NCBI RefSeq assembly: GCF_000003605.2
Contig: NW_003132852.1
Location: 238,302-289,966, forward strand
Direction of reading: 5' to 3'
DNA from: Saccoglossus kowalevskii
Lineage: Eukaryota; Hemichordata; Enteropneusta; Harrimaniidae
DNA: 51,665 bases
Shown: positions 862 through 44,673 of the stretch, one piece after another
Position numbering within the stretch: position 1 is the first letter of the stretch
Layout of the letters: each line of letters opens with the position of its first letter
Program-made: the position numbers and the translations under genes
Notes under the pieces: generated by a model
The model's input: only the letters and a program-made list of their open reading frames with translations
Told to the model about the DNA's origin: nothing
Database searches by the model: none

Positions 862-970
862 CTTGCGTTTTGTTCAACATATTACACTTCTTATAACCGT
901 TTTTTGATATGGTATCCACACAACCACATTTGTCACGTAAAAATGTTTGTAAACATTCTTTCCTGCAGGC
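862..970 (-). CDS. Channel exon 22: Cys-rich palm segment (ACRKEC)
   Basis: Acceptor TTACAAG, donor GTGAGTG; phase 0 in, phase 1 out. It codes [19 protein letters not shown] and then [15 protein letters not shown]. The C-x3-C-x8-C-G-C spacing matches the conserved ASC block written ACxxxCxxxxxxxxCxC in ENaC/ASIC proteins. This is the last exon found. The next one should carry the remaining palm cysteines and TM2, and nothing at 1 to 861 fits. Confidence 0.85.
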
Positions 971-3900
971 CTTGTAAAATAAACAATAATTATGTCAAAG
1001 ATAGTTCTTGTTTATATTTTTGCCGAGCACATTATTAGGCGAGGATAATATAAAGTTTCTATGTTTGATTTCGAGATCAATACAGTGTAACAAAGCTCCA
1101 TTCATTGCTCCATCATGTTGGCCCTTCAGAAAGTAACGCGCTCTCATACGTTTCAATACATCATACAGATTGTAACAATGTTAAAACTTACCAAAGTTGA
1201 GTATGGATAATTGCCATAAGGTGTCTTATTTTCTTTTGTACAATTATCCCATGGTTGTCCCAGAGTCTTGGTCTCACTCTACAATGAAAAATAAATATAC
1301 AGATCGTGCACGTGAGAATGTAAAAAAAATAAAAAAAACATTGATTGATTCTTTAATCGACTAGTCTGTCAAACTTACGATAGAAATTCCAATCGAAGTT
1401 TCATAACCAGGTACAACGCTTATTGATTCATCTTCTGGAAAGGGATGATTGTTCGGATTATGCACAGATAGCACAAACCCGACGCCTTCAGATAATAATG
1501 TTAAATATTCAGACTGTTCTACAAATAGGATCAGTGTAACTCCTTGTAACGATATAGAAAACAATAATTCATTATTTTAATATGACATATTTATTATATC
1601 GCCACCTATTTTGTAAGAGCAATGATAGGTATCATATACATGCAATGCATAGGACAATTTATATAATTATACATTAAACTCAATCGCATGAATTCTTTGA
1701 GTATTTAATTTGGTATCGGGTTGCACGAATGTGATAATATTGTCTCTAGTAACTAATACTGACACCTCAAAAGAGCATAGTGAAATATACGCTTTCACAT
1801 TCTTTACTTTAAATGTGACTTACCATACTGTTTGCCAGTTTTAGAAGTTGTATATAATTTTCTGTTTTCTGTTAATGGATTGAATGTTAAACAATTTCCA
1901 TATTCGTTGTTCTGAAATTCTGAAATATCACTGAAATATAACATAAATAACTCGTCATTAACCTTTGACATACATCTTTCAAAAATGGAAAAACACTCAT
2001 TTTTCAAATATATATATAAATACACGGTATTCTCAACGAATGTCACGTCACCACGGGTCGTGCTTGATCATATAGCTACCACAGACGACAGATATAGGGT
2101 TAGTTCCAAGTATAAGATGACACCATGGGAGAATTTATTTATCATACGATTGGTCGATGGCATTTTGAAAGTAGCGTAGCGTTGATGAATATTGCCGCTG
2201 ATACCATTTGATTTTTTTGAGGCATCACGCACATTTACGTAGTCAGTGCTCAGGGATTCAATGCGTCATGACAATAAAAAACCTATGTACTGTACTGCTG
2301 ACACGGTCTATTAATACGATTGGATATTCACAAAAAAGCAACTCAAATTAACGTTACTTTAATATTACCTTGCTTGGCATTTTTTCTGTTGGTATCGACA
2401 TTTCAATATCGTATCTTCTTGTTGATGTCCATATTTAGCTATCTCTTCAACAGGCACGTCTAGCATACTCCGTATATTTAGTGCCGGATCAAATGCAGAA
2501 GCCAAAATAACATGTCTCAGTGATAGAGGATCTCTGTTAGGGATCATCCCAGTTGATGTATTAGTATAGTATTTGTTTCTGAAGTCGGCAAAGATTTTGG
2601 AATCTTGTGTTATGTCATAGAAATATTCAAACCAATGTGGATCTGCAAACACGTCAATATCACGAAATGTGTCCAATACTGAAATATATGAGGTTGTATT
2701 ATGGTCAGTTTAGGCTTTCTTGCATTGCATCTGTTCGCATTGTAATCATAGTATATCCCACAAAACGTAATTCCTGGAATAATCACTTCTCCTACAATGT
2801 TATAAATGTGCTTTAAATATAAATCCTCCGTTTATCATTACTGATACCAATATTTACTTGATGTATCTTCGTAATAATCTTATTATTATACATCTTTTCC
2901 TTTCAAGAATACATCATGGGAATGCCGAAATCCAAAATGTTTGGAACAGAATCAGCGAACTCCTTTGTGTGGAGTCCGGCAGCCATGTTTGTTTTTATTA
3001 TTAGAGGACGCTTAGGCACGTAATTATTCCATATTTAGAAATCGCATTCCATAATATGGTAGGATGAAAATACCCCGTAAACGTAACGCTGTAATGTATG
3101 GCGTTACGGTGACAGATGTATAATAATATATTATAATATTAATTATCCATCAATTTCAAATGATTGATTCATGTTATCAATCATGTTACCTCATCATTTG
3201 AGACTTTGTGCGTGTATATATTATTTATTGTGTAACGAATTGTTTTGATTGCGAGTATGAGAAACAAATTATGCCTTGTACACAAACATTATAATTATTT
3301 ATCATTACAAATTACTTGTTGTATACAAGAGAGTCGATTATGTATTAAATAATTATCATAGTGTAAGCTGTTAACAGCCCACACTCAAAACTAGGATTTA
3401 AAGCCCATGGGCATTTAACACTACACGTTCACATATCTGAGTCTGAAGTCAAACTGGAGAAGAAACCAAGATACAGTTGTGAAGGTTCGACGCTCCAAAA
3501 CTCCAGTCACTGGCTACAGAATTTTTACTGCGCTGACTTACTCTGTACTGCACAGTTTATAATGACGATATCTCCTGAGGTCAATTGCACGTCATGGCAA
3601 CCTAAGTTTGATATGCCTGGTATGTATGTAAGTGAATGGGTATATTCTTTCAATACTTGTTTCACTTCTCAGATCTGGGACTTACAACGCTCATGTATAT
3701 ACTGAATAGTTTCTTTCTTTTGCAAGGGGACTAATCCAATCAATTTTCCACTATATGCCATGGTCAGAAAGTCAATCAAGCCAATTGTACATATATACAT
3801 ATATGTCTTCAGTAGATTTTCTCAAGTTGTGTTACATTCTTTCTGTCCATTAACCAAGCTCTCATGGTAATGGATAGAACAACATGGTTTATGTAGGTCA

Positions 3901-6900
3901 TGTTGCATCACCTTGGAAAAGGTGGCAAAAAAATGAAAGATATAATTATGTATGTCAATGTGGAAATAGTCTGGTAATTATGAGCGTGTATGTGGGGAGG
4001 GGTCCCCCACCTCAATCGTGCTATAATTTGTCATCTTACCCTCAAACTCCTCATGACACCATAACAAATATTTCACTTGTGCTAAAATCGTGAAAATCTG
4101 TGACCACTAACTGGAGTGCCTTATATCTGTTCGACTCAATAATGCAGTATTTAGGATTTCTGTATTTGCTAGCCATCTTATCAATCCTTAGATAGCAGAT
4201 TCAACACTACTTTTGATATGTTTGCCCCGTAAAGGAGGTCTGCAGATTTCGAAATTTTACTTGAGTCATGACACTGCTGTTCCCCCCAAAACACCAACAT
4301 TACAGGGATATACATGCTATAATCATGTTCAGCACTTCCACAGAATAAAACACATTAAACCTTTATATGAACAGGCTTCATTTCCTCTTTTACTTCAGAG
4401 TCTGACTTTGAATGACGGGTTCGGCTATAATAGTACGTGGATTTCAGGGTTACCGAAATAGTGGGAGCACACCATCTAATTTTAAATATCGGCCCCAACA
4501 TCACACATTTTATTGTCTCAATCGTTAATTGGCCCAAACACCTGTACATTCATAACCAAGATACTCATATCAAATGAAGTCCAGTGATATTTTTGTACCT
4601 GTAGTGTTAAATGTCCCGAACTCTGGGATATATTTCCGACTTTTGAGTGTGGACTGTTATACTATATTAATAATAGAATACATAAACACTTCTCTTGTGC
4701 GCAACATGTAAATAGTTTCGTTTAATCAAAATTCAGACAATTCGTGACAAAAGTGAAGGTTCAATTTATCTCTGATATAAACTCTGCTACATTTAAGCAA
4801 CGAATATCCTATTCTTATATAGATAGAAATGTCATTTACCATAATCACAGTTTTGCTCATCATCGCCACCATCGCAATCGATAAACAAGTCACATCTTTT
4901 ATGAAGTGAAATACATTTAGGCAGTGAAGATATGCCATTTGAAAATATGCCAGCTTTGCATTTGTATTCGCCCGGACAAACTAAAAGAATAGACAGAGTT
5001 ATTCCAACAAATTTAATATTATCTATAAAAAAATATAGTAATGCCGTGTTAACTAAAGACGAATTCACATATACCTTGGTAAATGGCTACATCACACTCA
5101 ACTGCACAATGAAGTGATAGAGTAATGAATAACAAAAATTACTACTACCCTTTCTACTAATGCTCACGTGTGCCAACATTGGTGAATAGAACAGAAGTTA
5201 AACACATTAAAAAAACAATAAAAATAACAATATATCATAATGTGTATAGTTTAATCTGCAACATTAACTTACATAAGTATATAGTGACCTGTATCTTGAT
5301 GACAGTTCATTACTATAATTTGCCGTTAACACATTAAAATGCATTACTGAACCCATTACAAATTAGCCCTCGGCTAAGGTCACCATAACCAGATTAATCT
5401 TGTGATTAATTGTTACTCAGTTTGAATTTATCATATCCTGTGAATAAATATCATTCACAATAATATTTTTAACTTACATTCTGTACAGTTGACTTCATCA
5501 TATTTATCACCACAATCATTCCAACCATTACAAATTTTGTCAAAATCAACACACCATCCACCTTTACATTGAAATTGGTCATCGGAACACACATCTGCGA
5601 AAACATATCAAACTACGTAACATTTATTGAAGTTTGTGAAATGAGGGTCAGCACAGCTCTTGTATATTGTAGTTAGACTATTTATGGTTTTCTACATTCA
5701 TCCAAGATCAGACAATTAAATTGACCACAGAAAGAACATACTTGTTTGCAAACGTTAATACACACTTATTAATATTATTATTAATCAATTAATACAGAAA
5801 ATAATAAAGTTGCATTCTTGGAAGATGTGAATTTGTGGTTTTATTTTTTAGAAAATTATGCGACATATTTAGTGATTTGAATATGCGGAAAATGGGCTTT
5901 GGATTTATTTTGTAAATTTTTATTTTTATTCGTATTCGATTTTTTTATATTCGGATCAGAAATATGAGTGCATAACTGTGGTATATTCTGACACACACCA
6001 AATACACAGTTCAATTAACCTTGCAAAAATCACGGTGTACATTTTGTCATATAGTATTTGAATATCACCATCGACTTGGCCTACCCACTATACGCTCGAC
6101 GCTACAAGTACATTCACATCATTCAATTATCAGTAGTAATTTCAAACAACTCACAGTCACAAAACCTTTCGTCACTTCCGTCATTACAGTCGCCATACCC
6201 ATCGCACCATGAGTTGATGTGTATAAACTGAGTACTACGACATTGTTCTATTCCATTTGGTAGTGTTTCTGAAAATAATAATAATAATAATATAACAAAA
6301 ATTATCCGTCGAATAAAACGAATTAAAGTTCTTAATATTCTAAGTATACAGTATACTTGGTGTCACAAATTCGACACACACATTTCCATCAATCAGTGAC
6401 TGTCCTCGTAATCCAGTTGATGTTCCAAATTAAAATGTACTCCCTTATTTTAGAGCCAAATGTCAATACCTGTGTTTAAATTACTAATTTGATTATGCAG
6501 TGAGGTGTTTGTGTCGGTTGTTAGTTTGGATTGCTTTATTTCTAAATAATTTAGTAATGTTATTCTATACATGAATTGTACAGCTAGGTGAAAGGTTCCC
6601 GAAAAGTTTATGTCGCAGGGTGTTTTTATTCGGATCAATGGCAAGGAAAACTTAAATTGATGATGATACGAGGGGCGTTCAATAAGTAATGTCCCTGACC
6701 TACTTCCAGTTGTCTGATCTACATGAAATTTTGCATGTGTAACGATTTACATCTCTATGGGTTATGTTGTAAAAAACAGATTTACATGTGTTTGAACAGT
6801 CGGGTGTGAAATGGAGCCAGTTGAGTGTAACGCAGTGATCCGGTTTTTGTATTTAAAAGAACGCACACCATAGGAGATTACTCGTTTTCTGTTGACCATG

Positions 6901-21900: not shown

Positions 21901-24900
21901 CAGAACACACACCTACAAACAAATTATCGATTTCAAAATAAGCTATGTTTTATATTAGTGTATTCACCATAAGTGTATGAAATATAATATTTGTGGGTAA
22001 TGATTGTATCCCAGAACACACACCTACAAAAATTTTCGATTTCAAAATAAGCTATGTTTTATATTAGTGTATTCACCATAAGTGTATGAAATATAATATT
22101 TGTGGGTAATGATTGTGTGGATTTTCAAATCAGTCTAATTTTACATGTCAAGGTAACGTTATACTCATCACTGGGAAGAATAATTGTTCACTAAAATATG
22201 TTGTTGATATATATGCCCTATATTGAAATGAAAAACGCTATATTAGTTATTGGACAAACGCTTTGATTATATTCGAATATTGTACGGTTGGTATATGATA
22301 GAATATTTTTTTTAAATGTTGCCGTTGATTTAATGACTTATTTACATACCTAACATTGAACATAACAAAATAGTTGGTATACATAATATATGATAGAGTT
22401 TTAAATAAATGAACTTGTACGTCAATGCAGATATTTGTGTGAGTCATTTTTCCAGCTTAACATTTTGGCGATTGACGTAATTTTATAGTCGTGTGGGAGG
22501 GAAATTTTCACTCCTTGGCTTTCTCAATTCTCCTGGAATTTCCCCTGGTAATATATGTCCGGTCCATGACTTATATGCGTAAGAGCATACCAATTATATA
22601 CAATAATTCCAGCTAGATATTGATATGTATTCAATGATGGGCCATGGAATATAAAAGTTATTCACAAAACAATTAGACAAAAATGCTAAATTTACAAGGG
22701 TCTTAACTATGTGTAAGCATTTATAAATGTCAAATAAACAAAATATAAAACAGACTTCCTTTTTCAATGTTAATAATGTACTTATGCTGGATAACCAATG
22801 CTCGAATAAATAGTATTGTTTATATCAGATCATCATCTGATGTCAAAACCTGTATACCTCATCCGTGTTTATTACTTCCTAACTTTCATCGCAACTTCAA
22901 TTGAGTAGATACCTCTTGTTGTTGTTGTGCCTACTATTTAAATTATGGAAAGTTGACATATTCATAGCTTACGATTCGAACACATATAATGATCTTCGTC
23001 GGATCCATCTTTACAGTCATCTCTCCCATTGCATACAGCACGGAGACTAATGCATCGACTATTGTTGCACACGAAATCGTTACATGGAACTATGGAGATA
23101 AAAATGAGGCATTCTTCACTATATAATACAATTATGGCAAACGTATTCCATAATGCACTGAAAACGCAATGACTATAACCACAAAATAAAACCAGTTATA
23201 ACATGCCATTAACTAAGGTAAGTATTAACACTAAGTGCTTTAGATATTGTATCAGAGATGCTAATGTCGATGAATTAACAGCAGAAGTTAAGATACTTAG
23301 ATAAGAATTATAGGGAGTTAAGACCAGGTTGGGCGAATGATGAACTGGAACTCCACATAGAAAGGCAAGCTGGATATAAACAAGAAAGCAAGATGAAATA
23401 CGGTAAACTTGTCATTGACTATAACATATGAGTTTAATAAACGCTCACACATGAGGTTTAGGTCATGGCTCAATTATTTAATAAATCTGGACGTGGTCAT
23501 TGACACTGCTGATGACGATATAATACATGCGGTGAGATGAAAGCGTTCAGCGCTAAGCGCAATAGACGAATATGCGTCAGTTCAGTCAACCAATTCGTAT
23601 GATATAATACATTTGGGTGTATGAAAAATAAAAACTAGGAAACCAGTATCAGATGATTTTGAAGACTCCGTTACCACTACGGCGACAGCTTGGCACGCAT
23701 AGTTCGTTGACCTCCACCCCACGCCATGGTTAAACTACCAATTCGCAGCAGTTTTAATAGCTAAGACGAACATTTTTGTTTTACGTTTACTTAAAGCTGG
23801 ATTTTGCCAACACTGTAACATGATGAAAAAACATTTGATAACCCAAATAAATATTATTAATGTGAATTTTGTTTGTATTTGACAGGTCAATATATAAAGA
23901 AAGCCATACCAATGAACATTCCTTTGCGACCAATAACTCATTGCAAGTCGTTTATGTTTATGTCCGGGTTTGTATGGTTAGTTTCGTGGAAATATTAATG
24001 CTACTTATGAACCGCACTAAATAATGAACACAAAATGTATTTCGAGGATGACAATACCGTAATTGCTCTATCAAAAGCATACCACAATAGAAGAGAATGT
24101 TTCTTCTTCTACAGAAGCATGTTGCATGTAGTCGATTATTTGCACTAACATGGTATACTGTACGTCTATACTGTAATTTGAAAGCAGAAACTTTACGTTT
24201 TTTGTTGTATAACTGTCATGTACATACAAGTTTTCATTATGTTCCCCGCGTTTCTTTACATGTGCAGTTACGGATAAATCATGCAATAATTAAAAATGTT
24301 TCCATCTACAATTGAAGCCTAAGAACGGCCCACACATAGGTGAAGCCAGTATTGACGTTGATGGCGCTGTTAGAAACGAAGTCTGCAGAATTGTACCCAA
24401 ATTAAAAATAAAAAAAAAAAACTATTTACCCGTTCTTTTTTAAAAAGGAATTACACTAATGGCTGTTATATAAAATAGATAATCCATACGCTTGAAGTCT
24501 TTGTTTTATATTTATTTATTCATGGGTCAACTACATGTCTTCTGCCCACTCGTGATATCAATACCATGTATTCTAGCTATATTTCAACTACCTTCGCCTG
24601 TGGACAGTATGCACATAATCACTGGTGATAATAACTTCCATGTCCCACAAAGAGCGAGAGAGGCCATGGTGCTCTGGTATTATTACATTAAATCCCAGGC
24701 TTTACAAAATCGCTGGCAAAGTTTTAACCACGTAACTCAGGATGGTATGAGTGTTCGATGATTGATTAACCATTCGTTGGTGATGGAAATGCCGCAAGCA
24801 TTAAATAATGGAAAATAAAACCACACAATTTCACCTTGGAATCTTTTTTGAGACACAAAGCGACTTCGTATGTATTTTAACAATCACTTCAATGAACAGA

Positions 24901-26095
24901 TTTGTAATGGCACCTATTGCACTTCGACCAAGTTTAGATAACAAGGAAGTTTCATTGCCGATTTTCAAATATTTTCTTTCATTTTTAATTGGCTGATGTA
25001 TATCGCAACGACAGCTTTATTTTCTGAAGGAATTGGAGATAAGAAATAAGACAAATCACTTTCATTCAAACATAAATTTTCTATAGTTGCATACCAATGT
25101 CGTCATTAAGAAAATTAAATTTAATGGTAAAGTTTATTCACTCTTCATATAATGAAATTGTTCGTTTTCTTGTAAGAAAAACTTATTGCATGCATATAAT
25201 ATCTGAATTTGACTCGTATGGCGTGTGTACGTCTAACTACTATATTATTTACTGGGTGTGTCATGAATGTTGTGCACACTCCCAGAAATGATGTTGATTT
25301 TTATGTAAGCAAGAATGTTTTCAAATGTGATAATCGCATTAAGGCTGGTGATATAGTTTACTATATTTAAAAGAAAATTCGAGCGAATACAGATGCGGCT
25401 TTTCACGGAATTATAAATTATACTGTTTTCCATGTTAAATGTACAATAATTGTTTGTGTATTGCTGTATTATAACATTTAGTGGTGTATGAAAGATATTA
25501 ATAGAATTTAGATGTAGAGAATAATTATTCATATAAACAACTCACGGTGTCCACATAGATCGGCGTCTTCATCATCGCCATCGGGACAGTGGTTATATCC
25601 ATTGCAGGTAAAACGCATTTCGATACATCTACCGCTCTTGCACTTGAACTCGGTACATATCGCTACAAAATTAACAAAGTAAGCTTTAGATTACTGTGGG
25701 CGACAACGGACATCGAAAGACCCATTAGTAAATATCAAGAAACATGCATCTGAATGGTATATATATATATATTTGTTTCATGTTTTCTTGAACTGTAATG
25801 TATACAATAGATCTGACTACAATATTGGAAGCATAATATTGTGTATAGTACTTTTTAGCTTAATAAAGGTACTTCAGTTCACAGCTCATACCTAGAGACC
25901 TGCCGTAAATACAGTTATTATGTTTTAAAACGTGTGATGGTTGAAAAATGTATTGATACACTGACAACATAATCTTTTTCTATTTGTCTTACGGTACATC
26001 AATTTGAATGTATACTATACTATACTACTGAATAAACTATATCTTTATATGAAGACGTATTAAAGTAGAGATGCATGTTCGTGGGCACTTGGGAG

Positions 26096-26141
<46 letters not shown>

Positions 26142-29100
26142 TTTTATTATCCAAACAGTCTTGGATATAGACTGTTAACATTTTGTAGNNNNNNNNNNNN
26201 NNNNNNNNNNNNNNNNNNNNNNNNNNNNNNNNNNNNNNAACATTCTCTCTTTTGAATGCTTTGCAAGATTTAGCAAGGCTGTACGTAAATAGTAAAAAAG
26301 AAACAAGGTGAAAAATAGAAATGACGGGATCTCCATATTATATATAACTTTTAACAAAACGATAATACATTTAAATTTGGAACTGTTACAGCCATTTTAA
26401 TTATGAGCATTAGCAAACTTCTCACTGAGTGAATTGTTATGCAAATTAGTAAGTATCTTAGCTTCTTTTTAGTGCACATTCCAGAACTTTAAAAAAAATA
26501 GCTCCAGGACGCTTTGACCTTTTGTTTTGAAATTTTCACAAATGATAGACAATGTGTTTATCTTCAAAACGCCGTCGGGGCATTGTTTTTAGTTGAACAG
26601 TGTTACAAAAATCGTACAGACAACTAGCCTGGTTGTTAATTTATGCATAAACTTGAAGTAGTGAAATTTGAGTTGCTGCCCTGCAAAATTGACAACTGGT
26701 AGACAGTTTTCAAGACGGCACTTTATTCAAAGTATACAGATGTACCAATAAACCAATTTTGACAGTAAACAGAAGCATGGTTTAGAAGCTAACTTTTTTC
26801 AAATCACTTTTGACCAAAAAAGCACATTTTTGTGCATATTTCAAACTACAGTGTTCATAAATAAAAAAAAATACTAACAAAATTATAAAATTCATACAAT
26901 ACGCCTTCCGAAAATATATAGTTTGTGGACAAGGGAGATCATATTGGTTTCCTAATTAACTAATTAAAATACCCGTCAGGTAAACTGCATCTCTACCTTA
27001 AATATACTCAGCCGAAGTGTGATGGTGAGCCGATGGAGGAATAAACGAACCTTGCCTGGCAAAGATGGGATACTTAAAAACACACAATCCGCCATTGCAG
27101 AATCACAACAAGCCAAGGTTATTTAGACTCGGGCTTTTATTACTCTAATTGTTAAAGTCGACTTTTAGATTCTTCGTTTGGTTTGGGGGCTGGGAAACTT
27201 GGTCGGAGATCATCGAGTTCATACATTAGAGAGGGTTTACGAAGTCAACTCACAGACAAAGTCAGCGTACGCACATTACTGCCTTGGTTCTTACTATTTC
27301 AGCTTCAAAGATACAATGTTTGTTTTACAAAAATATTTTAAACGATCTTTGAAATGGACAATTCCGACCGATCGATCACTTGGTTTTGCTTGTGTTATTT
27401 CACCGAGATTAATTGACGGAGTGTCATGCGGGACCAAATTATACGTTCAATTTACTATTTCAATCTCGAATTTACCTGTCACTGATTTACTATCAGAGTT
27501 ATTACGCGACATCTTCGTGATGTCCTATTTACAAGTGATCTTGTTAGTTTTAGGGAACACGAAAGAACTAGTGAAAATACCAAGATACACACAATAATAT
27601 TTACGCTAGATGCAGCCTGCGTTGATGTGGAACCATTCATGGTCAATGGGATAAACGTGATCTTGCATGTGCATGAGATTTATTTGATGTTGCAGTTTAT
27701 GACATTTAGTAAAATATAATCGTAACAATTTTAGAAAGTGCTAAATTTGTCTGAAATAAAATAACTTTGGGCTTCAAGAATTCTGATTGGTCAAAATCAT
27801 GAATTGACAAATTAACGGCAGTCATTATTTTGTGCAATTGTGTATGTTGTATTTGTTTTAAATGTCACACTTGTCCACTTCAAATATGCATTTCTCTCTC
27901 AATATATCACATACCTAGGTCACTAAGTTCGACGTCAATGAACTGGGCCGTCTAACATCAATATCAATATCAACAATCTCAAACGCCGTTGCATGTAGTG
28001 AGATACTATTATGAAGGCATTTAATAAGAGATGTGACTGAAAGGCAGGCGACCATATATGGACATGTGAACACATTAACATGCATAACTGTCATATCTGA
28101 AAAACTGGAATATTCGGGAATATTTCAACAAATGTGGGTGAGTATTTACTTACTGTTGTTACACGCAGCTTCATCTTCGTCTTCTCCATTGGGACAACGG
28201 GGATAACCATCACATACTTCAAATTCGTCAAGGCAGATGTGGTTGCTACATTTGAAATGAGGACATGTATCTGAAGAATATAATTCGATTGCCAATCATG
28301 TCTACTTTTTATTAACTTGTTACTGTATTTACACATATTTACCCCAAAAAATTGTTAACATTTATTATTACCACTGTCAACAAAAGTTGTTTTGTTATTG
28401 TCCGATAAAATATGTAATTTGAATACTTGTAGTTTATTCAAATGACAATTTCATACGCTATATATCAGTATTAAACGTTTAGAATTGTACCTTTTGAATG
28501 TTAGGGCGCGATGGTTCCTACAAAACCATTGTTCCAATGGTTTGGAGAAGAAAAGATAATGTGTTTTTTTAAAGTATGCATATTTACTACATCCCTTGGC
28601 ATTGTGTCTGACTAAATAAAGTATGTACCCTCATACGTAGATCATATTTTACTGTAATGATGTAGACAATTTCTGAAATTGAGAATTGATTCATAAGTTG
28701 TTGATGTAGTGTAACGTCGTCCACATTCAATATCTTCGATATAAATGTTATGAGATAATCAAATGACAAATTGGTATCATCTCCTCGGGGTTTATATATC
28801 ATTATTTTAGTGATTTGATCATGTTAAATCATGCATTGTTTATGTGTTTAATTTGTAGTTGTTTTTTTGTTCATGAACTCGTATTATCTCCAAGTAACAA
28901 CTGTTTTATTGATTCAAATTCGGTGTGATATTACCACTATACAACTTGCAAGGATACTACACAATTATTTACTCACGAATTTCGCACATCACGGGATTTT
29001 CGTCCTCCCCCCAAGGACACGCACGATATCCGTCGCAAACATCTTCATCCTCAATGCACTTGTCGTTGAAACACGTAAAGCCAGGACATGTATCTGCCAA

Positions 29101-32100
29101 AGTATGTTGGAATGTTAAATTCGATTGATGTAAATATATATTGACGTAACTATGTACTGTGTTTGGTGTTCAATCATAAAAAGCAACGTTTGAGCAATCA
29201 ATCAAATCTGTATTGATTTCCATTGATATGTCAGTCAACGAATCAGTCAACGATTTAACATAGTTAATGCTAATCTAATTAATTTCAAGAACAATTATGA
29301 AGTGTATTACTATTAGTCGCGTACACTTGTATTTACTTTAATGCGTAATGTTCGTTTAATTTAAGAAAGATAGCATATCATTTGCATTATATATGTTTTT
29401 TAATTCTTTTTTGTATAATAAACCCAACTATTTTGTATTGTTTAACAATTACTCGGCATTCCTCAACACATTCCTAGTTGAAATCAAAAAGTACATTATG
29501 TTCTAGTCTGACATGAGGCTGTTGGTTTGTTTATCTAACATGATTAGTATCCCAGTTACCAGTTGGCATAATACAAACACGTTGAATTTATTTCATCATA
29601 CCTGCAATTAGGCATTTTTGTCACGTAATATTTATGTTGTACATTTGCACATTGCATATATATGTGCATGAATTACCTTATTATTCTCATAGTACACTTT
29701 ATAAAAGCCAAGAGAAGTATGACCTGTTTGTATCAACAGATCGTAACGAGGACCCCGAAAACTCTCATGGTATATATGTAATTAATGTAAATAACTTCAT
29801 ATACATCAGAAACTTAATAACTATAATGAGCAACGATGTATTAATTTTACAGCATGTTTTATTTATTTATTTTTTATTTTCCAATCTCACACAAAATATT
29901 AAATGGAAAATGAACAGGAAATGTACTTACAACTATCACAGTTTTGTTTCTCTTCACCTTTAGAACATTCTTTATTATTACGGTACAATTGGGCACATCT
30001 TTTGAAACCACTGATACAAGTACCATCATAACACCGAAACTCACTTTCCGAACATTGTTCTGCATAATGAAAGATATGGCATTTAAATATAGGTGCTCTT
30101 AATATGTTTATTCTGCATTCGCGTGTAAACCCATCACTCCCTGATGTTAAGATTATAACTTATCACTTTTGCAAATAGTTACTAAGATCCAAATTAGCAT
30201 GGTTATGTTCAGTATATATTAAATACTCGCTGTTAATACCAAATAGCATGTATGGGATATTTTCCGAACAACGCTAAGCGATATATCCTGTAACAGCAGC
30301 GAATCACCTATTTGTCATATTTTAATTGCATCAATAAAAAGAAGACATATCAAGTATACCGTCATAATTCTGGAAGCATAGCATGATTATAAATATGCGC
30401 TATTAGGGGATACGACTTATTTCAATATTTAATTTGGTTGTTAATAGTAATAATACGAGAGAATTTCGATTTACTGCTGATAACTTGAAGTAAAACTCGG
30501 CGACTCTGTCGTGATGAAACGTACTCTGTGAGGATCAGTGTTAGCCAGTTAGAAAACCATATTGATTTTGGCCAGTTTCTACTAGATCAGTGTTCTATAA
30601 TGTTCGTAGAACAAAAACATTGTTACGCCTACACAATAACGAGTATGATAGCATACGTTACTACGATGCAACAAAATCTGAATTCTTTCAGTTTCATCTG
30701 CATTTTCTCCAATAACGTTTGACCACTCTTAAATGTGACATTGTGCACGTTAAATGTGTTTAAAACAGCAGAATGGTACCAGAGCCAAAACAATATAACA
30801 GCACCAATATCAAATTAAATTATACGGGACACACAAATATTATATCGTGTCTAGATTTGTACTTACGAAGCGGATATTTGCAATCTTCATTATCAGGTTC
30901 ATCACTGTAATCGTAACAGTCACGAATTCCGTTACAAAATGATGAACTTGGAATGCAATCTAAGTTGTCACACGTCCACTCGAATCTAGTGCAAGTTACT
31001 AAGAAGACAAAGAGATGAGTTACAATGCACACTTTTGGGTCAAATTCAAGATCAATTGCAAAAAGTAAATTTCTCGCTCATACATCGAATCAGCCAAATT
31101 ATGTCACATATAAATCCTCAAACTCTTTACATATACATTTATTAACATAGATCAATGTCACAATTGTACCTGGAATTAATTATATTATTATCGTATGTGT
31201 ATACAAACATACACTCAAGGAAACAATAAATATAAACATACATACCTTTAGGACAGTCTGCTTCGTCCATGTCATTTGAACAATCAAATTTGTAATCACA
31301 TTTCTGGTATAACGGGATACACTCGCCTTCAGTGCATTTGAATTCAGAGTCATAACAGTCGCCTTAAAAAAACAATATATTAAAGGTGCAAGCATCATTA
31401 CGAGTTACAGGCAAAGTGTTTTCTAGATGGTTAGTAAATTTAAACTCCATTATAAAATTGTACATGTACTATAACTAACCTACTACTGGTATTATTTATA
31501 TTATCATATTAGATAATATAATGTAATCGAAAGTGTAATTTTTCAACAAACTCCGAAAAAATATCTACAATGCCTGCCAAATGAAACTTTAGATCAAACG
31601 GGATAATACAACGCCAGATGGAAAATCAAATTTATGATCCAGTTGTATGGTTTGTCCCAAAGAGGGCGCCATAATGTCTGCAAGTGTTAAATATTTTTAA
31701 AATCCAATGTGACATTTTGTTTGTGAATTAGCTAGTCTACGTAGTCTACATTAGCTAGTCTAAAATAAGCAGAATGCCTAAACTTCAAAATGGCAACTAT
31801 AATTTAATCCGATATGACTGCCGAAAAAGTTGACCAATCAAAATTCTGAAAATTAGGTACCTCTGATCAAATCAGGGTCAATAAGCACATCATGTTTTTT
31901 TAAAGTATAACGGATTGAGAACAATTCAACGGAGAGTTAGAAACAAACGTTGTTTAACACAAACCACGTGACTGATCATTTTGTTTTCTTAACAACTTTG
32001 ACCATATAAGGTACACGTTTAATTTTTAAGTCAATTGATTAAATACTCATGAAAAACAAATGCTTAAATATTTAAGATGTTCAAATCACGTGATTTTCCA

Positions 32101-33832
32101 AATAAGCGCTGTGCAGTATGAAGTACATCAATTTAGAAATGACAAATTTCAAACCGATCATCTTTCTGTATCAGTATAAAACTACTTTCTGTTTAGAAGA
32201 AATCTAAGATAACTGCCAACAACGTGGTCAATCATTAGAAATTTGCAAACGGCAATGTTCTTTATACATAGATGCTAAATACAAAATTTCAGATAAATGT
32301 ATTGTGTGATTCTAAAAAAAATATTTTCAAGATATCGAATGTAACGTGTAAAGTCACATGATTGCTAAATTTGTATTCATAAAAAATTGTTTTCAAGATA
32401 TCGAATGTAACGTGTAAAGTCACATGATTGCTAAATTTGTATTCATAAAATAGGTAGTCCATCTACCAGCAATTCCATAGCAACAACATAAGAATGCATA
32501 TAGCCTCAAAAAAGGTTCCAAATGGTTACTTTCACTTTAACTTCACTCCAAGATGGCCGTCAAAGTAGTGGAAACTTTTCGCAACATTTCACTGCATAAC
32601 TTTCACTCAAGGTCTACAAAGTTAAATATTTAATAATAGATGACCAAAGAATCCGTTGAGAAGAAGAAATAAAGACAAAAGACTAGCAATAAGACTACAA
32701 TCTTTGCTCATAGCCCTAATTAAAATAAGTAATGTAATATGTTATAACAATGTACCAAAAATTTACTTACGGCAGTTATTTTCATCTTCTGAGTTTAAAC
32801 TGTCTGTTACACCATTACATTGCATATATGGTTTGATGCAGTTGTTTTCGATGTCGTTACATGCTATATCATTTTCTGAACAAGGCTCTTGTAAGAGAAA
32901 AAGAAAGTTTTAGAAACATATTTGGCATAAACTGTCATTTGATCACAAAGCTGTTCAAATTGAGTATGCAAATTAGATATAAACATGGTTTTAATTTATT
33001 TACTAAATTTAACTATGTTTAGAAACAGCATGTTATCTTATTTCCATAATATGTCGCGCAAAATGCAATATAAAATTATCAATATTAGAGTTTTAAATAT
33101 CATGTGACACAATAGAAATCTGTTACACTAAGTACCCAATGGCTATACTATACAGGATCAACGATTAACTCAAATAGCTATTGTGAGATGTTTCAATGGT
33201 AACAAACAGTTCTTTAATCCAAGTTGCAAAAGATATTAGGATGGTTATAGTGTCAAACATGGAAAGCACAGTTGATAATCATTCATCGGTATTATCGTCC
33301 AATTGAAGGATGAGTAAAATCAATAATAAATTGGTCTCGAGATAAAGATTATACGAAAGACACATATCTTACCTTTATACATGATAGGAAAATATTCATC
33401 AGATTTAGCTATGTCATAGTATATTGTGTTCTTTATAGCTGATCTCCGCATCTTATTCATATTACACAACGTCACAGAAGGGAACAGAATGGTGTTATTC
33501 TTTGTGACTGTCAGCTTAAAAGTTACATCGTAGTCAAAATATTTAATAATCAATGCACTAGCATGTAAAGTGAACACACAGAATGAAGCCAGAACAATAA
33601 TACTCCATATTATCTTGTGCATTGGTTTTACCGATGATGACACACGACTTATCCCATGTGCTGATGTTTCTGATGCAAATTGTGCTATGACATTTCTGAG
33701 TTTCTTGGTTTTTTTGCTTGTGAGTATTTCATGAGGGCTGCTTGTCTCTTTGGACGAGGCGTCAACGATTGATGCATCTGTGAGTCCATCATCAGTCTCA
33801 TCCTCAATGACGATCATTTCTGTGGAGGCCAT
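862..33832 (-). CDS. DEG/ENaC-family channel with a 15-module LDLa array (whole gene model, 3' incomplete)
   Basis: Joined model of 22 exons, listed separately below. Exon 1 supplies the cytoplasmic N-terminus, HG motif, TM1 and FPSVTLCN strand. Then come 15 LDLa exons and a half-module exon, all in phase 1. Five exons then restore the amiloride-sensitive channel (ASC) extracellular domain, with [41 protein letters not shown] and ACRKEC motifs. Family members are trimeric Na+-selective or cation channels with two TM segments and a large Cys-rich ectodomain. The LDLa insert falls between the first palm strand and the GHxxED segment, which is finger-domain territory in ASIC1. All junctions keep frame across exons (3,115 nt, ending with one base of a codon). 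TM2, the selectivity filter and the C-terminus are missing from the window. Ligand and ion selectivity cannot be told. Confidence 0.85.
1192..1278 (-). CDS. Channel exon 21: SETKTL...[10 protein letters not shown]
   Basis: Exactly 29 codons, phase 0 to phase 0, acceptor TTGTAG and donor GTAAGT. It codes a start [14 protein letters not shown] and an end [11 protein letters not shown]. This corresponds to the family region R/K-x-L-x-x-PYGxC that follows ETSIG. The Cys usually found after PYG (PYGDC/PYGNC) is Tyr here (PYGNY), although a Cys lies ten residues earlier (WDNC). Confidence 0.8.
1379..1542 (-). CDS. Channel exon 20: FVEQSEYL...FPEDE...ETSIG
   Basis: Acceptor TTACAAG, donor GTAAGT; phase 1 in, phase 0 out, 164 nt. 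It reads [14 protein letters not shown], then [20 protein letters not shown], then [10 protein letters not shown]. The LxLxLxVEQxEYL, GVxxxxH and PFPEDxxxSVxPGxETSIG blocks are diagnostic for the ASC family palm and beta-ball region. This is the clearest family match in the window. Confidence 0.92.
1824..1930 (-). CDS. Channel exon 19: YGNCLTFN block
   Basis: Acceptor TATTTCAG, donor GTAAGT; phase 2 in, phase 1 out, 107 nt. It codes [19 protein letters not shown] and then [16 protein letters not shown]. The family motif YGxCYTFN is present with Leu for Tyr (YGNCLTFN). The longer open frame upstream, to 2046, is intron read-through, because the TTTCAG acceptor gives the correct AG+T codon join. 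Confidence 0.9.
2369..2678 (-). CDS. Channel exon 18: finger/palm segment with [11 protein letters not shown]
   Basis: 310 nt, acceptor ATATTTCAG, donor GTAATATT; phase 1 in, phase 2 out. It begins [20 protein letters not shown] and ends [20 protein letters not shown]. The end matches the conserved GHxxEDxxLxCxFxxxxC segment of ENaC/ASIC. The middle ([25 protein letters not shown]) is helical and less conserved, as expected for the finger. It follows the last LDLa module directly. Confidence 0.9.
2880..3128. mobile_element. MITE-like element, copy 1
   Basis: It is bounded by an inverted pair: TTATTATTATACATCT at 2880 to 2895 and AGATGTATAATAATA at 3114 to 3128. The interior contains GGAATGCCGAAA, TGTTTTTATTATTAGAGG and a GGTGACAGATG end, which recur in the same order at 11892 to 12081. 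Two diverged copies with shared ends support a small non-autonomous DNA transposon. Confidence 0.6.
3372..4659. mobile_element. TIR element of about 1.29 kb, TA-flanked (Tc1/mariner-like, non-autonomous)
   Basis: The left end reads TAACAGCCCACACTCAAAA, followed by GGCATTTAACACTACA to about 3426. The right end (4599 to 4659) is its imperfect reverse complement: TGTAGTGTTAAATG, then TTTTGAGTGTGGACTGTTA. Arms are about 55 to 60 bp. TA lies at both outer edges, consistent with a TA target. No transposase frame survives. Confidence 0.6.
4840..4980 (-). CDS. LDLa module 15 (exon 17)
   Basis: 141 nt, phase 1 to phase 1, acceptor CTTTTAG, donor GTAAATG. It codes CPGEYKC, an unusually long C2 to C3 loop ([14 protein letters not shown], 14 residues where 4 is usual), then [15 protein letters not shown] and DGGDDEQNC. 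All six cysteines and the acidic calcium-site end are present. It directly precedes the ASC exon, so it sits nearest the channel body on the C-terminal side. Confidence 0.88.
5478..5594 (-). CDS. LDLa module 14 (exon 16)
   Basis: 117 nt, phase 1 to phase 1, acceptor TTCGCAG, donor GTAAGT. It codes [20 protein letters not shown], then [16 protein letters not shown]. This is a canonical six-Cys LDLa with the FxC signature, CNGWxDC and DE-x2-C spacing. Confidence 0.9.
6155..6268 (-). CDS. LDLa module 13, lacking cysteines C1 and C3 (exon 15)
   Basis: 114 nt, phase 1 to phase 1, acceptor TTTCAG, donor GTGAGT. It codes [20 protein letters not shown], then [17 protein letters not shown]. The C-terminal calcium-site half is canonical (CDGYGDC, GSDE). 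The C1 position is Leu and the C3 position is Phe. In known LDLa structures C1 pairs with C3, so a whole disulphide appears to be missing while the other two pairs stay intact. Confidence 0.82.
6669..6910 (+). mobile_element. Mariner-type transposon fragment, decayed
   Basis: After TA at 6667 the sequence starts CGAGGGGCGTTCAATAAGTA, typical of a mariner-family end. From the ATG at 6811 the plus strand codes [19 protein letters not shown] and then hits a TAG stop at 6871. This matches the N-terminal helix-turn-helix start of mariner transposases (VExRAVIxFLxLKGxTP). The following codons (EITRFLLTM) end at another stop. No opposite end and no DD34D catalytic core were found. Confidence 0.65.
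8208..8235 (+). repeat. 21-bp motif at left border of the foldback element
   Basis: One full copy of the ACTGTACAACAyATATGAATA motif plus the start of a second copy. The same motif lies in the same orientation just outside the right arm (14451 to 14549). It is either the insertion target or duplicated host sequence. Confidence 0.5.
8385..10450 (+). repeat. Left satellite array, about 36-bp unit, more than 50 copies
   Basis: The repeated unit is TTGGCACCACTCAGGGATAA followed by TATTATCTCTCTC, 35 to 38 bp. Variants have CATCACTC, CTCCCTCTTATG or TTTAGGG. Between 8430 and 9090 many units are exactly 36 bp, which leaves two frames open over the array as a by-product. Every unit carries the palindrome GATAATATTATC. 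Units become irregular toward 10300 to 10450. Confidence 0.95.
11277..11363 (+). CDS. Unrecognised spliced gene inside foldback element, exon A
   Basis: 87 nt, phase 1 to phase 1. The acceptor GTTGCCAATAG is preceded by a T-rich tract and the donor is GTTAGT. It codes [17 protein letters not shown] and then [11 protein letters not shown]. The frame joins exactly with exon B. An earlier exon with the start codon must lie between about 10450 and 11270; I could not fix it. The protein is unknown to me. Confidence 0.4.
11509..11676 (+). CDS. Unrecognised spliced gene inside foldback element, exon B
   Basis: 168 nt, phase 1 to phase 1, with a strong acceptor (TTTTATTTAG after a T-rich run) and donor GTATGT. 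It codes [20 protein letters not shown], then [17 protein letters not shown], then [19 protein letters not shown]. There is no stop, the composition is balanced, and Gly/Pro turns alternate with hydrophobic segments. It reads like a folded domain, but no family comes to mind. The transposon context suggests an element-encoded protein, though a captured host gene is possible. Confidence 0.5.
11776..11879. repeat. Hairpin with 30-bp arms in the element gene's intron
   Basis: The left arm 11776 to 11805 (GATACCTAAAAGTATGCAC...) and the right arm 11850 to 11879 are inverted, with about 26 of 30 positions matching and a 44-nt loop. It directly precedes MITE copy 2. Confidence 0.65.
11892..12081. 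mobile_element. MITE-like element, copy 2
   Basis: Same ends and internal words as copy 1 at 2880 to 3128 (TTATTATTATACATCT, GGAATGCCGAAA, TTTTTATTATTAGAGGA, CGGTGACAGATGTATAAT), but about 60 bp shorter. It is inserted in the intron between exons B and C of the element-internal gene. Confidence 0.6.
12245..12369. repeat. Inverted repeat with 16-bp arms
   Basis: GTCACCTGTCCATGCG at 12245 to 12260 and CGCATGGGCAGGTGAC at 12354 to 12369 are reverse complements except for one base, with a 93-nt loop. Local GC is higher than in the surroundings. Confidence 0.7.
12649..12824 (+). CDS. Unrecognised spliced gene inside foldback element, terminal exon C
   Basis: Acceptor ATACTTAG, phase 1 in, with the stop TGA at 12822 to 12824. 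It joins exon B in frame and codes [20 protein letters not shown], then a polar low-complexity tail ([30 protein letters not shown]) ending IDEFRV. The tail is rich in Asn, Lys, Asp, Glu and Ser and is probably disordered. The longer frame from 12579 is intron read-through. AATAAA at 12959 to 12964 fits as the polyadenylation signal. A further exon may hide in the roughly 970-bp intron before it. Confidence 0.5.
12959..12964 (+). terminator. Polyadenylation signal AATAAA
   Basis: A canonical hexamer 135 nt after the stop codon of exon C, in an AT-rich 3' region followed by T-rich sequence. It supports the plus-strand gene model inside the element. Confidence 0.45.
13225..14340 (-). repeat. 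Right satellite array (inverted), interrupted by an assembly gap
   Basis: Units are the reverse complement of the left array (AGAGATAATATTATCCCTGA, then GTGGTGCCAACAA), about 35 bp, with variants such as CCCTAAAGTG. Bases 13733 to 14080 are N, so the true length is unknown. The inner units at 13225 to 13310 are degenerate, mirroring the inner end of the left array. Confidence 0.93.
13733..14080. other. Assembly gap (348 N)
   Basis: A run of N inside the right satellite array, as expected for an unresolved tandem repeat. Confidence 0.99.
14451..14549 (+). repeat. 21-bp tandem repeat at right border of the foldback element
   Basis: Four to five copies of ACTGTACAACACATATGAATA, starting right at the outer end of the right arm. 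The array ends about 35 bp before the donor site of LDLa module 12. Confidence 0.8.
14584..14709 (-). CDS. LDLa module 12 (exon 14)
   Basis: 126 nt, phase 1 to phase 1, acceptor ATTCGAG, donor GTGAGT. It codes [20 protein letters not shown], then [19 protein letters not shown]. It has six cysteines, CNGRKDC and the DE-x4-C end shared with modules 5 to 11. The donor lies about 35 bp from the right border of the foldback element's flanking repeat. Confidence 0.88.
14900..15090 (+). promoter_or_regulatory. CRE-like palindrome followed by an ATG and splice donor (possible transposon promoter)
   Basis: TGACGTCA at about 14900 is a perfect cAMP-response-element palindrome. Downstream comes a GC-richer stretch with a tandem AACTTTAGCCATCCGA pair (about 15013 to 15052), then ATGGATATTATGTAAG, which is an ATG a few codons before a GTAAG donor. 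The layout resembles a promoter and first exon of an inserted element. No downstream exon was identified, so this is tentative. Confidence 0.25.
15591..15703. repeat. Palindromic hairpin, 17-bp perfect core arms
   Basis: AATATCACGATTTGTTG (15614 to 15630) and its exact reverse complement (15665 to 15681), flanked by weaker outer complementarity (AATAACACTT against AAATGTGTTATT). It looks like a small foldback/MITE or the terminal hairpin of an element. Confidence 0.7.
17165..17287 (-). CDS. LDLa module 11 (exon 13)
   Basis: 123 nt, phase 1 to phase 1, acceptor TTTCTAG, donor GTAAGA-like. It codes [20 protein letters not shown], then [18 protein letters not shown]. All six cysteines are present, with CDGNKDC and the DE-x4-C ending. 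Confidence 0.9.
17288..18282 (-). other. Intron with a GAT/GAC microsatellite
   Basis: Nothing gene-like. A GAT/GAC trinucleotide run lies at about 17936 to 17982 and a run of 10 C at about 18246 to 18255. Confidence 0.7.
18283..18336 (-). CDS. Half-LDLa mini-exon (exon 12, tentative)
   Basis: 54 nt, phase 1 to phase 1, acceptor ACCAG after a T-rich tract, donor GTAATT. It codes [17 protein letters not shown]. The C-x5-C-x3-C pattern resembles the C1 to C3 half of an LDLa module (compare CPGEYKC and CNNGQC in neighbours), and the second half is absent. Being symmetric, it can be included or skipped without a frame change. The open frame extends further upstream (to about 18409, with [18 protein letters not shown]), which loosely resembles the end of a Frizzled-type CRD. 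I cannot rule that out, but no in-phase acceptor supports it. Confidence 0.4.
18640..19440. repeat. Dispersed repeat, copy 1
   Basis: It shares long collinear similarity with 37880 to 38760 (for example AGCTGCACATA, GGTTTGAATTT, and alternating blocks of AACACTTTTCAAAATGTG and TCTAGTGAAA). A shorter relative lies at 35260 to 35500 (ACACCAGACTATAAA). It is non-coding, lies in the channel intron, and its internal blocks repeat about every 50 to 60 bp. Confidence 0.6.
19543..19659 (-). CDS. LDLa module 10 (exon 11)
   Basis: 117 nt, phase 1 to phase 1, acceptor TCTATAG, donor GTGAGT. It codes [18 protein letters not shown], then [18 protein letters not shown]. Six cysteines, FKC signature, CDGKYDC and an acidic end with DE-x4-C. 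Confidence 0.92.
19660..21789 (-). other. Intron with a possible retrotransposon relic
   Basis: 2.1 kb. On the plus strand, about 20167 to 20307 codes a stretch including [20 protein letters not shown] followed by ELVSDRRNG and a stop. QYEPGxLV resembles the C-terminal end of LTR-retrotransposon integrases (YxPGDLVW), but the match is short. The rest shows nothing. Confidence 0.4.
20167..20307 (+). pseudogene. Possible LTR-retrotransposon integrase C-terminal relic
   Basis: An open stretch of about 47 codons contains [20 protein letters not shown]. The QYEPGELV word fits the PGDLV region seen near the end of Ty3/gypsy-type integrases. The usual Trp after LV is Ser here, and a stop follows soon after. 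No catalytic core or LTR was found nearby. Confidence 0.25.
21790..21912 (-). CDS. LDLa module 9 (exon 10)
   Basis: 123 nt, phase 1 to phase 1, acceptor TTTGTAG, donor GTAAGT. It codes [18 protein letters not shown], then [20 protein letters not shown]. Six cysteines are present. The C5 to C6 loop is long and partly aromatic ([12 protein letters not shown]), with DE-x4-C. Its acceptor and first 16 exon bases have been duplicated upstream (see the repeat at 21896 to 22116). Confidence 0.9.
21896..22116. repeat. 111-bp tandem duplication covering the module 9 splice acceptor
   Basis: 21896 to 22006 and 22007 to 22116 are near-identical. Both contain CCCAGAACACACACCTAC, which on the minus strand is the acceptor AG plus the first exon bases. 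The copies differ mainly near AAACAAATTATCG versus AAAAATTTTCG. Confidence 0.93.
22973..23089 (-). CDS. LDLa module 8 (exon 9)
   Basis: 117 nt, phase 1 to phase 1, acceptor CTCCATAG, donor GTAAGC. It codes [18 protein letters not shown], then [18 protein letters not shown]. This is the most canonical module of the array (CNGRDDC-x-DGSDE), with the DE-x4-C ending. Confidence 0.93.
23090..25545 (-). other. Intron between LDLa modules 7 and 8
   Basis: 2.5 kb, no exon seen. On the minus strand, around 23690 to 23635, there is a weak tRNA-like head (GTCGCCGTAGTGGTAACG, then GGTTTCCTAG), so a SINE remnant is possible. Short open frames at 24097 to 25290 lack motifs. Confidence 0.5.
25546..25662 (-). 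CDS. LDLa module 7 (exon 8)
   Basis: 117 nt, phase 1 to phase 1, acceptor TTTTGTAG, donor GTGAGT. It codes [18 protein letters not shown], then [18 protein letters not shown]. Six cysteines are present. The Asp before C5 is His (NHC), as in other variant LDLa modules. DE-x4-C ending. Confidence 0.92.
26099..26138. repeat. Poly(T) run, 40 nt
   Basis: An uninterrupted T tract, next to an assembly gap. It could be the poly(A) tail of a minus-strand retroposed sequence or a plain homopolymer; no adjacent body was recognised. Confidence 0.9.
26189..26238. other. Assembly gap (50 N)
   Basis: Fixed-length N run, probably of unknown true size. Confidence 0.99.
28154..28270 (-). CDS. LDLa module 6 (exon 7)
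   Basis: 117 nt, phase 1 to phase 1, acceptor TCTTCAG, donor GTAAGT. It codes [18 protein letters not shown], then [18 protein letters not shown]. Six cysteines are present. CDGYPRC has Arg where Asp is usual before C5, like module 5 (CDGYRAC). DE-x4-C ending. Confidence 0.92.
28977..29093 (-). CDS. LDLa module 5 (exon 6)
   Basis: 117 nt, phase 1 to phase 1, acceptor TTGGCAG, donor GTGAGT. It codes [18 protein letters not shown], then [18 protein letters not shown]. Six cysteines are present, with the DE-x4-C ending. It shares CPxF and CDGYxxCPxGEDE with module 6, which suggests a recent pair. Confidence 0.92.
29094..29930 (-). other. Intron, no recognisable content
   Basis: About 840 bp of AT-rich sequence. 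A 109-codon plus-strand frame at 29634 to 29963 overlaps the start of module 4 on the opposite strand and has no motif. Confidence 0.6.
29931..30059 (-). CDS. LDLa module 4, degenerate calcium site (exon 5)
   Basis: 129 nt, phase 1 to phase 1, acceptor TATGCAG, donor GTAAGT. It codes [20 protein letters not shown], then [20 protein letters not shown]. All six cysteines are kept with FxC, but the CDGxxDC and SDE acidic ligands are replaced ([19 protein letters not shown]). By LDLa rules it should fold without, or with weak, calcium binding. Confidence 0.82.
30867..30998 (-). CDS. LDLa module 3 (exon 4)
   Basis: 132 nt, phase 1 to phase 1, acceptor TTCTTAG, donor GTAAGT. It codes [20 protein letters not shown], then [19 protein letters not shown]. 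Six cysteines, FxWxC, CNGIRDC and YSDE are present, with a longer five-residue spacer between DE and C6. Confidence 0.92.
31246..31362 (-). CDS. LDLa module 2 (exon 3)
   Basis: 117 nt, phase 1 to phase 1, acceptor TTTTAAG, donor GTATGT. It codes [20 protein letters not shown], then [16 protein letters not shown]. Six cysteines, FKC and DE-x2-C are present. The usual CDG is CDY and SDE is MDE. Confidence 0.9.
31363..32770 (-). other. Intron with a 66-bp tandem duplication
   Basis: 1.4 kb, non-coding. 32324 to 32389 and 32390 to 32450 are two nearly identical copies of a 66-bp segment (TTTTCAAGATATCGAATG...). No exon was recognised elsewhere in it. Confidence 0.8.
32771..32887 (-). CDS. LDLa module 1, lacking cysteine C5 (exon 2)
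   Basis: 117 nt, phase 1 to phase 1, acceptor CTTACAAG, donor GTAAGT. It codes [20 protein letters not shown], then [16 protein letters not shown]. The C5 position (after TD) is Ser, while its usual partner C2 (IAC) is kept, leaving a predicted free cysteine. The acidic end (SEDE-x2-C) is retained. It is the first module after TM1 and the most divergent at the N-terminal end of the array. Confidence 0.8.
33373..33832 (-). CDS. Channel exon 1: N-terminus, HG motif, TM1, FPSVTLCN
   Basis: 460 nt coding from ATG 33832 (MASTEMIV), phase 1 donor GTAAGA. Residues 1 to 50 are acidic then Lys-rich (KKTKKL) and cytoplasmic. [13 protein letters not shown] at about 52 to 64 carries the conserved His-Gly gating dipeptide (59 to 60) of DEG/ENaC channels. 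TM1 is about 74 to 96 ([14 protein letters not shown]). [10 protein letters not shown] at 117 to 126 is the family post-TM1 strand (FPAVTLCNLN in ASICs). The ATG was chosen because an acceptor (TTATATAG) lies at 33852, just upstream. The earlier TTG-started frame would read into that intron. Confidence 0.92.
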
Positions 33833-43886: not shown

Positions 43887-44673
43887 AATTAACAACAAGA
43901 ATTTGAAAGAAGCATAAGATACTGTATATAATGCAAATTGTTCAAATGTTTTGAATATGAAATCAAGAAATCAGTAATTGCGAGTTAGACCCAGTTCTAA
44001 TTAAGACTACTCTTTCGAGTGAACAATATCATATCACATAACATCTTATATCTTAATCCGTAAAAGAAATATCGATAACAAGTCTAATGACGTATCAGAA
44101 AGTGGTTTGATCCACCCACGAAAAACAGTGTACAGCCGGTATGGAGTCCGGTGATTGTATTGGACCGAATTAGTTAGGCCTATGTTTTTTATACGTGGTC
44201 ATTGGAAAAGCCCACCGTGAAACAAAATTACTAGAAAGCCACATCCTTTATTGGCAAGTTTAGTATAGTATGTTTTATTTGCACCGGATATTAAACAAGC
44301 GCACTAGTTTAATATTATGATGAAAAAGACGTATCATTGTCATATAATATATATTTCACATAATATATCAACAACCATAAATATAACAACTTTCATTCTT
44401 GAAAAAAAGGCATGCCCTTTATGGTATATAATTCACAGACCCCCTTGGGTACCTCACACATCCGTTGGTATGTTTCTATCATTTCTAACTCAGGTGAAAT
44501 AGAGGTGACAAGTCAATTGTCTATATTCCTGAACGAATTTACTTAAAAATAGTAAATGTGAAGTAGAAAAAGAGAAACGTAGAGGCCAAAACGACTAGAT
44601 ATAAATGAACTCGCCCACGACGCCTGGACCGCGAAAACTTTTTACAAATATTACTACGGGACTATAGCGGGAG

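Follow-up and report, generated by a model that had tools for sequence, protein, structure and literature searches.

A predicted DEG/ENaC channel gene of the hemichordate Saccoglossus kowalevskii with fifteen LDLa modules in its finger domain, and relatives with other modules in the same place

Protons, peptides, proteases or force gate the channels of the DEG/ENaC superfamily, and the finger constitutes one entry point for these stimuli; their subunits form trimers, which gate by motion of the finger against the thumb. LDL-receptor (LDLa) modules are folded about a calcium ion and attach to basic patches on other proteins, and the exons encoding them are often of phase 1-1. According to PMC11026163, the outer corner of the channel is divergent and important for gating across the superfamily; in ENaC it harbors sites for ions and proteases, and for mechanosensitive members matrix-tethering sites have been proposed there. 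The peptide pocket of FaNaC is placed by PMC11026163 largely in alpha1-alpha3a. Between finger helices alpha1 and alpha2 lies the GRIP domain, called unique to ENaC in PMC6197857. Among the papers listed by a search of the open-access literature, no title describes LDLa modules in a DEG/ENaC channel; the search did not extend to the majority of subscription journals or to any protein database, and predicted proteins of this kind may well be listed in the latter. In the portions available of the main text of DEG/ENaC papers, the word "lipoprotein" is absent from PMC10507113, PMC9234716, PMC11750451, PMC10148893, PMC9949801 and PMC9822975, and "LDL" from the same papers with the exception of PMC9234716, for which only the former word is reported here; in the available part of PMC9545775, "LDL" occurs twice.

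The DNA analysed in this work (the window) is a stretch of 51,665 nucleotides of S. kowalevskii (C2444:238302-289966; genome 572 Mb). It contains a single gene on the minus strand, running from position 33832 to 862 of the window, for which 21 exons were placed with exact splice sites, in the order of a TM1 exon, 15 LDLa exons and five ASC exons. All 20 introns between exons 1 and 21 are GT-AG, every join keeps the frame, and the joined exons constitute 1,020 codons with no stop; thus, an earlier note that had proposed this frame-compatible succession from the sequence letters was right in coordinates, count and frame. Exon 1 (33373..33832) encodes the N-terminus, an HG motif (SAHGIS), TM1, FPSVTLCN and the first finger stretch, ends in phase 1, and when scanned alone matches PF00858 over positions 1-90 (E 1.1e-20). 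Beyond the array, the ASC finger resumes in exon 17 (2369..2678; acceptor phase 1, donor phase 2), and is followed by the ectodomain exons 18 (1824..1930), 19 (1379..1542) and 20 (1192..1278) and by exon 21 (862..970; donor phase 1), which encodes an ASC Cys-rich stretch. The ASC exons are numbered 17-21 here, instead of the 18-22 of the earlier note, and the resumption that it had set at the GHQQED segment of exon 17 is found at VLDTF, about 80 residues earlier, so that this length of exon 17 separates the array from GHQQED. Scanned alone, exons 17-21 match PF00858 over positions 129-329 (E 2e-37), and they are therefore, together with exon 1, complementary and collinear pieces of one channel. 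On the joined window protein, Pfam reports PF00057 (E 8.9e-76, with 8 stretches passing individually) and PF00858 (E 1.8e-48, two stretches) only, with no EGF or beta-propeller units.

All 15 LDLa exons begin and end in phase 1, and exons 2-16 sum to about 608 residues, as against the about 600 of the earlier note. LDLa modules are present in exon 2 (32771..32887), which encodes module 1 and has Ser in place of the fifth Cys that is present in the tandem paralogue, and in exons 3 (31246..31362), 4 (30867..30998), 5 (29931..30059; six Cys, calcium-cage residues lost), 6 (28977..29093), 7 (28154..28270), 8 (25546..25662), 9 (22973..23089), 11 (19543..19659), 12 (17165..17287), 13 (14584..14709), 15 (5478..5594) and 16 (4840..4980), the latter with a long loop and a weaker donor, GTAAAT, past which read-through hits a stop after two codons. 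The array is completed by exon 10 (21790..21912) and by exon 14 (6155..6268), which has four Cys only. Upstream of exon 10, a 109-bp tandem duplication (window 21896-22116) copies its 3' splice site and first bases, a possible decoy acceptor.

A profile built from all 15 modules was searched against the window, the reversed window and the complemented window. Each module scores 40-58 bits with this profile, the best other piece of the window 9.1, and the best pieces of the reversed and complemented windows 9.2 and 6.3; since the profile was made from the modules themselves, the Pfam score constitutes the independent test. An initial LDLa profile had missed exon 5, which the 15-module profile recovered with nothing else above 9.1 bits. 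The 15 modules counted in the earlier note were all detected, although not all are intact: six cysteines are present in 13 of 15, and six cysteines together with D/N, D, D and E at the calcium-cage positions in nine, the other six being without a Cys or a cage residue. Differences among the 15 modules amount to 0.50, 0.43 and 0.63 at codon positions 1, 2 and 3, respectively.

The window ends short of the wrist and TM2, and a motif scan of the window for TM2 gave no credible candidate. Its left edge is adjoined by a run of 2,696 N (C2444:235606-238301), located between exons 21 and 22, which could hide an exon. Past this run, five further exons (22-26; C2444 234802-233507) continue in phase, with the CNCPEPC stretch, SRYSYRMTTSLAVWPSDDYS, and a TM2 containing DIGGALGLWIGMSAVTLFE; they came to light through an alignment of this region to its counterpart in a neighbouring paralogue, and match PF00858 over positions 352-454 (E 1.8e-27). 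The completed gene has 26 placed exons, 1,151 residues and a GMS filter in TM2, and covers positions 1-90, 129-329 and 352-454 of the 455 of the ASC profile. The HG motif of exon 1, before TM1, and the G/S-x-S of TM2, which in exon 26 is found in WIGMSAV, are motifs of DEG/ENaC channels; furthermore, the CNCPEPC of exon 22 corresponds to CxCxxPC ahead of the wrist and aligns to CGCYQPC of FaNaC. A trimer with an amiloride-sensitive sodium current is the trait of this class, and the window channel is predicted to be trimeric as well. The reading of the earlier note, one DEG/ENaC gene with an LDLa array in the finger, is supported, a TM2 and paralogues of the same plan having been found; the wrist and TM2 lie beyond the window.

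The insert is located in the finger, where it separates position 90 of the ASC profile from position 129. In alignments to ENaC gamma, the channel parts match as far as residue 114 and then from residue 237 onwards, the corresponding limits in Aplysia FaNaC being residues 152 and 194; this alignment gap, together with the placement of GRIP in PMC6197857, puts the array at the position of GRIP or near it. With the array removed, the best solved match of the channel is FaNaC, the FMRFamide-gated sodium channel of molluscs and annelids (PDB 7yvb, 8on7; Aplysia 7yvb_A, E 1.6e-46), and ENaC subunits and ASICs come next. The HG motif, psvT.CN and the TM2 pattern DLFADIGG.LGLW.G.S align between FaNaC and the window channel; however, FaNaC is without LDLa, its aligned parts being about 40 residues apart, and as the insert interrupts the region of the peptide pocket, the window channel was not filed as FaNaC. 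ENaC (PDB 6wth, 9blr; 9blr_B, E 4.1e-45) likewise has additional sequence separating alpha1 from alpha2 of the finger, but in its case this is GRIP, a small unit of beta strands that contains protease sites, whereas the window channel has 15 LDLa modules instead; against the TIGR00859 cut-off of 428 bits, the two channel pieces, scanned apart, reach 66 and 148. LDLR, VLDLR and LRP2 also contain LDLa arrays, the best matches being LRP2 chains over residues 399-727 (E about 1e-116), but they carry EGF and beta-propeller units that are absent here, and the window array is looped between finger segments with both ends anchored. In the relaxin receptors RXFP1/2, an LDLa module of a signalling membrane protein is reported to be needed for activation, this being a single N-terminal module on a GPCR in contrast to an internal array in a channel.

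A profile search of the genome gave at least 93 scored PF00858 matches. Among those listed, 33 start at profile position 1-5, of which 17, the window included, end at 87-100 and were examined as loci, the other 16 not being fetched as long stretches; having been picked by a match ending near position 90, this sample is one chosen for genes interrupted there. In 14 of these 17 loci, the TM1 exon is succeeded by LDLa exons, namely in the window gene, copy B, L025, L026, L027, L029, L030, L031, L032, L033, L036, L038, L039 and L040, the last four being viewed over 3 kb only and L036 displaying one weak, partial module (E 1.4e-4). LDLa modules were not found in the 8 kb viewed of L028 and of L034, and none was seen in the 3 kb viewed of L037. 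Copy B is located on the same contig as the window, with a second TM1 exon at C2444 205.8-206.3 kb followed by LDLa exons matching exons 2-11 in order; past a 77-kb N run from it, copy C consists of exons matching 11-15 and a TM2 exon, and B and C are treated here as two tandem copies. In closer relatives, the first modules resemble exon 2.

Other modules are found at the same place. L032 and L033 contain TM1, six LDLa modules, the ASC finger and more ASC exons within 8 kb, with one ShK exon each (PF01549, E 1e-8 and 1.7e-10, respectively); in phmmer comparisons their finger exon resembles exon 17 (E 1.5e-14 in L032 and 3.4e-12 in L033), and the Pfam ASC profile gives 0.071 on the re-entry exon of L032, below the cut-off, and nothing in L033. 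In L031 (minus strand, 141-1425), three PAN_1 domains come after the LDLa exons, the fetched stretch stopping before the ASC end. In L034 (2705-5869), three PAN_4 domains take the place of the LDLa array, and the third shares one ORF with the ASC finger, which matches the corresponding part of exon 17 (phmmer E 7.7e-5) and in which Pfam calls no ASC; further along this contig, on the same strand, there are more ASC matches. As PAN and finger are joined within one ORF, this fusion is independent of any splice inference. According to these sequence comparisons, the window gene is one member of a DEG/ENaC family in which the GRIP position is occupied by extracellular modules of varied kinds.

No LDLa was seen in L001-L008, eight short loci of about 3.4-3.6 kb. 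A tree of exon 1, which is short (93 columns) and in which 4 of 21 inner branches are starred, splits L001-L006 from the other 18 rows (98/94), which include all the LDLa and PAN loci entered and also L007, L028 and L037. A different group of five ASC matches lies within about 86 kb at C3473:25621-111409, uninterrupted across the insert position and without LDLa in the 3.5 kb viewed, one of them with two stops. Two more matches to exon 1 are located at C2444:71093-71559, one with five internal stops, perhaps a decayed or interrupted tandem copy.

Splice phases were scored around 82 LDLa modules of the window and its relatives, a strong donor being defined as GTRAG or GTAWG. Such a donor follows the module in phase 1 in 64 cases, in phase 0 in one and in phase 2 in five, with 18 of the 82 modules being without a strong phase-1 donor; pyrimidine-rich acceptors are in phase 1 in 49 cases, and in phases 0 and 2 in one each. 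After exon 1, a strong phase-1 donor is present in 13 of 17 loci, and a strong donor in the other phases in none; L026, L027, L029 and L033 have no strong donor there, and the one of L031 is probably coding sequence (LRKS). In comparisons with eight paralogue sets, restricted to collinear exons, the LDLa exons display dN/dS values of 0.14-0.29 (Fisher p 8.5e-5 to 1e-16), those of the window yielding about 0.25 against the tandem copies; a looser run, using best matches with no requirement for the orthologous exon, gave 0.16-0.32. Within local alignments, the cysteines of the window gene are kept in 236 of 236 cases, and exon 2 of L025 is without its last Cys, outside the aligned part. For exon 1, dN/dS is 0.14-0.24 against six paralogues. 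These low values indicate purifying selection by which both the arms and the TM1 part are kept, exons 17-26 being outside this test.

The earlier note had itself named what would overturn its reading, namely two interleaved genes, with an LDLa gene residing in a same-strand intron of an ordinary DEG/ENaC gene and never joined to it. Exon 16 can indeed read through to a stop, and given that LDLa exons are often of phase 1-1, the phase match alone is weak against such an arrangement. However, intron 1 has just 485 bases, and none of the 11 ATG-started ORFs in it reaches a strong phase-1 donor; further, 14 of the 17 loci have this same arrangement, with exon 2-like first modules in closer relatives, and is kept within 8 kb in L032 and L033. 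Because of the paralogues, of the purifying selection on exon 1 and the LDLa exons, and of the single-ORF fusion of L034, two genes are very unlikely here. For lancelets, PMC4967905 cautions that gene-model artefacts may underlie novel domain combinations, a concern that the paralogue and single-ORF evidence answers in the present case. The possibility that the window gene is a decaying copy is suggested by the loss of a Cys in exon 2, the four Cys of exon 14, the minisatellites in the introns and the tandem match with five stops near C2444:71 kb, but is highly unlikely since the 26 placed exons contain no stops or frameshifts and dN/dS against the tandem copies is low.

Two further alternatives accept a single gene and concern how the arm is used. 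The LDLa exons might be optional, a spliced switch from which one gene would produce a plain channel and many arm lengths; all 15 are symmetric, a direct join of exon 1 to exon 17 would keep the frame, and FaNaC and ENaC match the channel once the array is taken out. Symmetry is, however, equally expected from exon shuffling and duplication, and the constraint on the LDLa exons says only that they are used, so we consider such a switch a lesser but appreciable possibility. Alternatively, the arm could act as a GRIP-like inhibitory or protease-sensitive plug, whose cutting or displacement relieves inhibition. While the array occupies the GRIP position, 15 disulfide modules would seem a poor protease-released peptide, and residues 115-236 of ENaC gamma are unmatched in the alignments, no similarity to GRIP thus being seen, which makes a plug improbable.

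The explanation that we prefer, one DEG/ENaC gene with a modular arm through which the channel would be gated, is probable when taken as a whole, a judgement that blends a part of high confidence with one of far lower confidence. The anatomy of the window channel, as predicted, is very probably correct. The finger would have taken up phase 1-1 exons of extracellular modules in a phase-1 intron that divides its first part from its second, the contents of this slot being 15 LDLa in the window gene, and apparently LDLa with ShK, LDLa with PAN, or PAN alone in relatives. Assembled as a trimer, the subunits would bear three arms, each about 608 residues long, projecting from the outer upper corner of the channel; these arms would leave it at the loop where ENaC has its inhibitory, protease-released GRIP domain, and be anchored in the finger at both ends. 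The earlier note had conceived of a ligand-tethering, calcium-dependent array and of a lipoprotein-, protease- or matrix-gated channel, which would be conjectures of a similar order. The arm-binding gating mechanism, which we regard as the likeliest, is offered tentatively: through its acidic, calcium-coordinating LDLa faces, the arm may bind an extracellular protein (matrix, a secreted ligand or a neighbouring membrane protein), and tension or occupancy on the arm would move the finger against the thumb, by which the pore might be opened, closed or primed.

With regard to the wider family, we lean slightly towards a modular-sensor arrangement, in which the phase-1 intron of the DEG/ENaC finger would serve as a slot where LDLa, PAN and ShK exons are plugged in, multiplied and exchanged (15 loci seen), providing different receptor arms on the same gate; owing to the symmetry of the exons, each gene may also be able to vary its arm by splicing. 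The position of GRIP in ENaC would then be filled by several kinds of adhesive or ligand-binding modules, and these channels may unite the catching arm of a receptor and an ion gate in one protein. As chimeras made by nature, they would also allow the opening of the pore by pull on the finger, or by its occupancy, to be studied, and may bear on the gating of mechanosensory degenerins by matrix tethers, a long-standing question.

In the rest of the window, Rfam (gathering scores) and tRNA scans gave no match, and for ten other ORFs Pfam returned only matches below the curated cut-offs; relatives of exons 17-21 were not found in collections of viral contigs and genome contigs, as one would expect of a gene from an animal. 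LDLa exons 13 and 14 are separated by an 8.3-kb intron, which contains a 38-bp minisatellite of about 55 copies (window 8355-10386, plus strand) and a second array in the opposite orientation (13299-14332, minus strand), with a flank common to both, the pair being perhaps a mobile element with an internal satellite. Outside the gene, a long direct duplication is found at window 44671-46931 and 46963-49187, 77-87% identical in pieces, with another duplicated pair at 39.1 and 42.4 kb (83%), as well as tandem arrays of 156 bp at 36584-37267 and of 42 bp at 51085-51665, the latter continuing past the end of the window.
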